Source: Flavobacteriia bacterium
Lineage (GTDB): Bacteria > Bacteroidota > Bacteroidia > Flavobacteriales > Flavobacteriaceae
Length of the DNA: 32,344 nucleotides
Direction of reading: 5' to 3'
Assembly (NCBI GenBank): GCA_030617765.1
Contig: JAUWUU010000007.1
Span: 1-32,344 of the forward strand
Shown here: positions 19,121 through 20,439 of the stretch, in pieces
Layout: each line of letters starts with the position of its first letter
Numbering within the stretch: the stretch's first letter is position 1
Program-made: the position numbers and the translations under genes
The notes under the pieces: model-generated
Database searches by the model: none
The model's input: only the letters and a program-made list of their open reading frames with translations
Told to the model about the DNA's origin: nothing

Positions 19121-19150
19121 GAAATAATGAAATTAAACTTTCATTATTTC
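19121..19150 (-). terminator. Hairpin at the end of frr
   Basis: GAAATAATGAAA (19121-19132) pairs perfectly with 19139-19150 around a six-base loop. The stem includes the last frr codons and encloses the stop. The T-tract after it on the minus strand is weak, so it may stabilise the 3' end as much as terminate. Confidence 0.5.
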
Positions 19151-19642
19151 TTTTTCTTTAATTGCGTAATGGTCATCAATGATTTTGTTAAATTTATCTG
19201 TTAAATCCTGAATATCAATCTCCGAATTCTTAAGTAAATCTTCAGAGATATCAATTTTTTTCAACTCGTTATTGGCTTCTTTTCGATCATTTCTGATACT
19301 TACTTTAGCAAATTCAGCTTGATTTTTTGCTTGTTTAGCCAGGTCTTTACGTCGTTCTTCAGTTAATATTGGTACATTTATTATAACACTCTCTCCATTA
19401 TTCATTGGGTTAAAACCTAAATTGGCATTCCTGATACCTTTTTCAATTTCATTGATCAAAGATTTTTCCCATGGTTGTACTGTTAATGTATGGGCATCTA
19501 GTGTATTAATATTTGCAACACGGCTTAAAGGAGTACTTGAACCATAATAATCAACCGTAACACTTTTAAGCATTATAGGTGAAGCTTTTCCCGCTCTGAT
19601 ATTTGATAATTCATGCTCAAGGTGAGTAATTGCACTTTGCAT
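19133..19642 (-). CDS. frr: Ribosome recycling factor, N-terminus cut off by an in-frame stop
   Basis: RRF splits post-termination ribosomes together with EF-G and is normally essential. The readable product from ATG 19642 has 169 residues against the usual 184-186. Everything from the middle of helix 1 onward is typical: NIRAGKASP, DYYGSSTPL, GFNPMNNGE, LTEERRKDLAKQAK and the C-terminal KEKEIMKV. The missing N-terminal residues are encoded upstream (MNEELQFIIDSTK from ATG 19687) but are cut off by TAA at 19646-19648. Flavobacterial relatives, from memory, have Glu there, and GAA to TAA is a single change. Domain I would lose about half of helix 1. A sequencing error, a tolerated truncation or a stop-restart are all possible. 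It follows pyrH in the same direction. Confidence 0.9.
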   Translation of the reverse strand: MQSAITHLEHELSNIRAGKASPIMLKSVTVDYYGSSTPLSRVANINTLDAHTLTVQPWEKSLINEIEKGIRNANLGFNPMNNGESVIINVPILTEERRKDLAKQAKNQAEFAKVSIRNDRKEANNELKKIDISEDLLKNSEIDIQDLTDKFNKIIDDHYAIKEKEIMKV

Positions 19643-19687
19643 TTGTTATTTAGTACTGTCTATAATAAATTGAAGTTCTTCGTTCAT
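19643..19687 (-). other. Detached frr N-terminal segment: 13 codons plus TAA, then CAA and the restart ATG
   Basis: Read on the minus strand from 19687 the codons give M-N-E-E-L-Q-F-I-I-D-S-T-K, then TAA (19646-19648), CAA, and ATG (19642). The 13 residues match the conserved RRF N-terminus and are in frame with the main gene, so this is the same gene interrupted. Only three bases lie between the stop and the next ATG, close enough for a terminating ribosome to restart. Confidence 0.85.
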
Positions 19688-19731
19688 GATTGTCTATTTT
19701 TAAAAAGATTTTATTCAATAAATTTAACAAA

Positions 19732-20439
19732 TTATAAATCAACTTTTGTTCCAATATTTTCTCCAGAAATTATATTATTTAAATTATCTTCTTTATTCAT
19801 ATCAAAAACAATAATGGGTAATTTATTTTCTTCACTTAAGGTAATAGCAGTCATATCCATAACCTTTAAACCTTTATTCATTACTTCTTTAAAAGTTATT
19901 TCACCAAACTTTTTAGCATTTGGGTCTTTTTCAGGATCAGAAGTATAAATACCATCGACTCTTGTGCCTTTTAAAATTACGTCAGCATTAATTTCAATAG
20001 CCCTTAGAACAGCTGCAGTATCAGTAGTGAAATATGGGTTTCCGGTTCCACCGCCAAAGATTACTACTCTTCCTTTTTCTAAATGTCTTACAGCACGTCT
20101 TTTGATAAAAGGTTCAGCAACTTGTTTCATTTCAATTGAAGTGAGTAATCGGGTATTTAAATCAGCATCTTCTAAAGCACTTTGCAAAGCTAAACCATTG
20201 ATTATTGTTGCCAACATTCCCATATAATCTCCCTGAACTCTATCCATTCCATTGCTAACTCCTGTTAAGCCTCTAAAAATATTTCCACCACCAATTACAA
20301 TAGCTACTTCTACATTTTTTTCAACAATTTTTTTAATTTCCTGAGCGTATTCAGAGAGGCGTTTTGGATCAATTCCGTATTGTTGATTACCCATTAATGC
20401 TTCGCCACTAAGTTTTAAAAGTACTCTTTTGTATTTCAT
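19732..20439 (-). CDS. pyrH: UMP kinase
   Basis: PyrH phosphorylates UMP to UDP with ATP as a hexamer of the amino-acid-kinase fold. The 235-residue protein starts [15 protein letters not shown] and contains [10 protein letters not shown] (about 48-57), [15 protein letters not shown] and the [16 protein letters not shown] segment (about 129-144). The C-terminal [19 protein letters not shown] is also typical. Length is standard. It precedes frr by 44 bp measured to the original frr ATG, the very common pyrH-frr pair. Confidence 0.96.

Follow-up and report, generated by a model that had tools for sequence, protein, structure and literature searches.

Codon 14 of the only frr found in a draft Flavobacteriaceae genome is an in-frame TAA, one codon before an invariant methionine codon

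The interrupted frr gene

The window, the whole stretch of 32,344 nucleotides analysed here, belongs to the draft genome of an uncultured Flavobacteriaceae bacterium (2.2 Mb in 166 contigs, 90% completeness). On its minus strand lies frr, the normally essential gene for ribosome recycling factor (RRF). The frr frame begins at ATG 19687-19685 and after 13 codons meets a TAA at 19648-19646, which is followed by CAA and a second ATG at 19642-19640 (ATG AAC GAA GAA CTT CAA TTT ATT ATA GAC AGT ACT AAA TAA CAA ATG). Past codon 14 the frame is open as far as a TAA ending at 19133. The features of the locus are:

19646..19687, minus strand: leader ORF of 13 codons (MNEELQFIIDSTK) plus TAA, the former 5' end of frr; its protein is conserved in relatives
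19646..19648, minus strand: in-frame TAA at frr codon 14; missing from 112 other family loci and, by pattern search, from 399 genomes
19640..19642, minus strand: ATG of Met16, the proposed restart codon, one codon after the TAA; ATG in 113 of 113 family loci
19133..19642, minus strand: rest of the frr ORF, 169 aa when begun at Met16; supported by TIGR00496, dN/dS and fold prediction
19732..20439, minus strand: pyrH (UMP kinase), intact, the upstream neighbour of frr; TIGR02075, 342 bits

The preliminary description of this DNA had reported the in-frame TAA and RRF similarity on both sides of it, and both observations held, as the pieces 5' and 3' of the stop align with RRF in one frame. The 169-aa ORF scored 174.6 bits against the frr equivalog model TIGR00496 (cut-off 149.1), which places it in the family, and frr matched PF01765 with 192 bits (cut-off 29.7). 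The gene is still frr by descent, even with a start at Met16. That Met16 is the normal start, and the upstream start a misannotation, was rejected because the first 15 codons are protein-conserved across the family. A second intact frr, for which a search had been proposed, was not found: the whole 166-contig assembly gave a single match, and a copy elsewhere was rejected on that ground. No alternative frr variant was present in the bin, and no frr relatives were found in the viral sequence collection.

Comparison with relatives and age of the stop

We compared codon 14 across an alignment of 113 Flavobacteriaceae frr loci, a few of which are one genome reached twice. As the preliminary description had advised, this took in the closest relatives, and all 112 other loci carry a sense codon (GAA in 82, GAG in 28, GAT in 1 and CAA in 1); TAA occurs here only. 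The five congeners have GAA or GAG at this position and an open frame of 185–188 codons. We also searched 400 family genomes by pattern for a stop lying two codons ahead of an ATG that opens an RRF-like frame, and only this genome qualified; the one further match, in genome G150, proved to be TGG and hence no stop. We found frr in 395 of these 400 genomes, and among the matches listed every frame was at least 185 codons long. The stop was thus not conserved across relatives, as conserved recoding or regulation by a leader ORF would require. In the literature searched, which took in few subscription papers, we came across no RRF described as shortened at its N-terminus.

The invariant ATG at codon 16 aligns with residue 13 or 14 (Met13/14) of distant RRFs with solved structures. 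This codon is retained for the sake of the protein, yet it places a start codon three bases after the new stop.

Comparison of the frr body with the two nearest relatives gave a dN of ~0.026 and a dS of ~1.0, which indicates strong purifying selection. The 13-codon leader differs from its counterparts in the nearest relatives by one synonymous and one conservative change and shows no decay. By our estimate, a leader free of selection over half that divergence would have accumulated ~16 amino-acid changes at its 33 nonsynonymous sites. Since the leader is undecayed, its sequence indicates either that the nonsense change is recent or that the leader still codes.

Restart at Met16 and other ways past the stop

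A short RRF, readthrough, restart and a base error had been listed as options at the outset, and all of them agree with a private change, an intact downstream frame and a single frr. The comparative data narrow this list, and restart at Met16 is the most plausible way for the cell to cope. We consider the best explanation to be a recent private nonsense substitution in the only frr, survived by restart at the invariant Met16, and we give it about an even chance of being correct. A single-base substitution would have turned codon 14 into TAA; ribosomes starting at ATG 19687 would make a 13-residue peptide and terminate at the UAA, and some of these terminated ribosomes, or fresh initiating ones, would start at the AUG at 19642, three bases beyond the stop. 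Ribosomes may also initiate independently at Met16. The result would be an RRF of 169 residues, short of 15 residues at the N-terminus (about half of helix 1), and it would have to retain recycling activity sufficient for growth.

In Escherichia coli, when translation ends at a UAAUG that lacks a Shine-Dalgarno sequence, ~25% of the ribosomes restart, and an AUG placed as far as 4 nt beyond the stop serves about equally well (PMC9955659). The 3-nt spacing here falls within that E. coli range, so the restart geometry is plausible. The position of the stop within the gene bears on the same reading. There are 88 possible single changes that create a stop in frr, and 8 of them lie in codons 2–15; that the stop sits within this stretch, the only one open to rescue by restart, weighs roughly tenfold towards a tolerated mutation and away from random error. 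Against restart, no other family genome searched had an RRF interrupted in this way.

We next compared the context of the two ATGs with a start-site profile. The profile was drawn from few genes, namely 108 whose ATG start is conserved in a congener, and it measures likeness of context, not use. It is rich in A and peaks at -12/-11 and -3, in agreement with the Kozak-like A at -3 of Flavobacterium johnsoniae (PMC6847099). ATG 19642 scored 1.73 against 2.01 for the original start, a likeness that puts it at the 36th percentile among the conserved starts of the profile and at the 96th among 4,815 in-frame ATGs internal to genes. Its score tops those of ATG16 in the 86 loci compared (median -2.03), with the nearest relatives at 0.38, and over the scored 20 bases the substitution alone separates this genome from those relatives. 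There is little RNA structure around either start, the fold being no better than that of shuffled sequences and locally weaker. As judged from its letters, TAA-CAA-ATG has the form of a termination-reinitiation junction, with a start-like context only a few bases from the stop.

Whether a protein begun at Met16 could work was approached by modelling. Helix 1 spans residues 3–29 in a relative's model and is 13 residues long in the model that starts at Met16, for which a fold is predicted with a mean pLDDT of 87.6; such a prediction is no proof of stability or function. According to the model, translation from Met16 would leave domain I without a full helix 1 and hence without its complete three-helix form. 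Residues E3, F7 and E14, invariant in the relatives aligned, all lie in the lost stretch. Because these residues and half of helix 1 would be missing, it is uncertain how active the short protein would be. The strong purifying selection seen in the body of frr lends indirect support to a possible recycling activity with EF-G.

The cell could instead read through the stop often enough to make some full-length RRF, which we think improbable. The base after the stop is C, the rarest base following TAA in this genome (30 of 505), and may mark a weaker termination context, and the leader is still protein-conserved. However, this C stems from the pre-existing codon 15, which is CAA in the nearest relatives too. 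General suppression would be costly, since TAA ends 505 of 698 ORFs, and no stop-decoding tRNA was seen among the ~20 tRNA genes found, an incomplete set. Nor was there a recoding-like RNA structure: a candidate RNA element at the junction was rejected, with nothing relevant in Rfam and local folding weaker than in shuffles. Readthrough is without positive support. Recoding is likewise unsupported, given that TAA is the main stop and that no tRNA to decode it appeared in that incomplete set. The preliminary description had argued against recoding on the ground that all other genes here end in TAA; this premise needs a slight correction, as the window has 19 TAA and 8 TAG stops, but its conclusion stands on the TAA count, made over 0.97 Mb.

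The junction could also be a regulatory device, in which scarce RRF would leave unrecycled ribosomes at the leader stop that restart more often at Met16 and thereby raise RRF synthesis. The TAA-CAA-ATG geometry is compatible with termination-reinitiation, and heat inactivation of RRF in an E. coli reporter sent more ribosomes downstream when all frames were counted (54% versus 25%), but the same data gave no rise without RRF in the AUG frame (20.7% versus 24.7%) (PMC9955659). In another study, RRF depletion left coupling unchanged genome-wide (PMC7538156). The arrangement is moreover missing from the congeners and from the 399 other family genomes, and the junction needs one substitution in an existing codon. 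We regard such a device as very improbable. Conserved termination-reinitiation regulation is excluded at the family level, since the search of 400 genomes returned this one alone, and its private invention is unlikely; that a private frr leader ORF ties RRF synthesis to Met16 restart and to the factor's own recycling, as a new self-regulating circuit, is a proposal to which we attach very little weight.

Known systems offer partial likenesses to restart at Met16. The lacI gene of E. coli is the classic case in which an early nonsense codon is followed by restart at an internal AUG. As there, frr has an early stop, an in-frame AUG a few codons downstream and, in our proposal, a shorter folded product; unlike lacI, it is normally essential and is known here from sequence alone, in a natural draft genome. 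The release factor gene prfB regulates itself by a programmed frameshift at a widely conserved site with its own signals. It shares with frr an early stop codon in a termination/recycling factor gene, whereas the frr stop is private to this genome, keeps to the gene's own frame and has no accompanying signal. In translational coupling of the UAAUG type, stop and start likewise lie a few bases apart and a Shine-Dalgarno sequence is unnecessary (PMC9955659, PMC6728339), but the two frr ORFs are parts of one gene and are spaced by one codon, with no overlap.

Reliability of the base and meaning of the finding

The close rival to restart at Met16 is that the TAA is absent from the population's working gene, being either an erroneous base or the variant of a minor or dying strain in a mixed-strain draft. 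We hold this to be a serious possibility, if on balance a doubtful one, and the assembly is the main doubt. The draft is fragmented, in 166 contigs at 90% completeness, the gene is normally essential, and the undecayed leader codons would fit a stop that is young or absent in life. Contig ends share duplicate stretches of 94–99% identity, which suggests co-assembled strains. A private TAA also interrupts a second gene, acyl-CoA synthetase-like, whose frame is unbroken in the two nearest relatives; elsewhere in the bin lies a partial copy of it, 96% identical, with an open frame. On the other side, the frr stop sits in the small rescuable part of the gene, and the bin's lack of another frr variant also speaks against this reading. 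So does a comparison of 148 orthologues, in which clear frameshifts were lacking and no further stop fell within the body of an intact-copy gene.

This comparison covered 148 genes in common with a congener (55,877 residues), and frr was the sole intact-copy gene whose body holds a stop; the other eight stop matches were located in gene termini, over-called 5' ends or a partial second cinA. The survey of stops spanned 0.97 of 2.2 Mb here and 0.63 of ~2.7 Mb of the congener. When ten other same-frame split ORFs were read through and searched against Pfam, no domain extended across the stop. The literature searched on stops in draft environmental genomes yielded nothing usable. The 148-gene comparison favours a sound assembly, while the signs of strain mixture and the second private TAA limit trust at the level of single bases. 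We have kept restart at Met16 and an artefact close in probability because a random error in a given gene and a surviving early nonsense change are both rare.

Several of these observations can be located precisely. The second private TAA is at 967-969 of L141:202-2274 (G000:C5), in a gene with CoA-binding, Succ_CoA_lig and ATP-grasp domains; both of the nearest relatives have an orthologue with an open frame over 691 codons. The partial copy, with its 425-codon open frame, is at G000:C144:14915-15685. The contig-end duplicates pair L153:1-1185 with L190:1-1185, L185:1-757 with L221:1-747, L139:1-549 with L145, and L208:2489-2699 with L233:1-211. The partial second cinA, which has an in-frame stop (L211:5217-5477), lies ~1.3 kb from an intact cinA (L211:2659-3915). 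Two tRNA-Met genes (window:183-491 and L226:7114-7425) share ~240 bases of downstream DNA at 95% identity, representing either a duplication or a strain variant.

If the base is not real, the case is a reminder that lone stops in draft environmental genomes require read support. If it is real, a natural bacterium lives with an RRF minus half of helix 1, made by restart. Such a bacterium would offer a natural experiment on how much of domain I is needed for recycling, and also on the efficiency of restart in a phylum without Shine-Dalgarno sequences.
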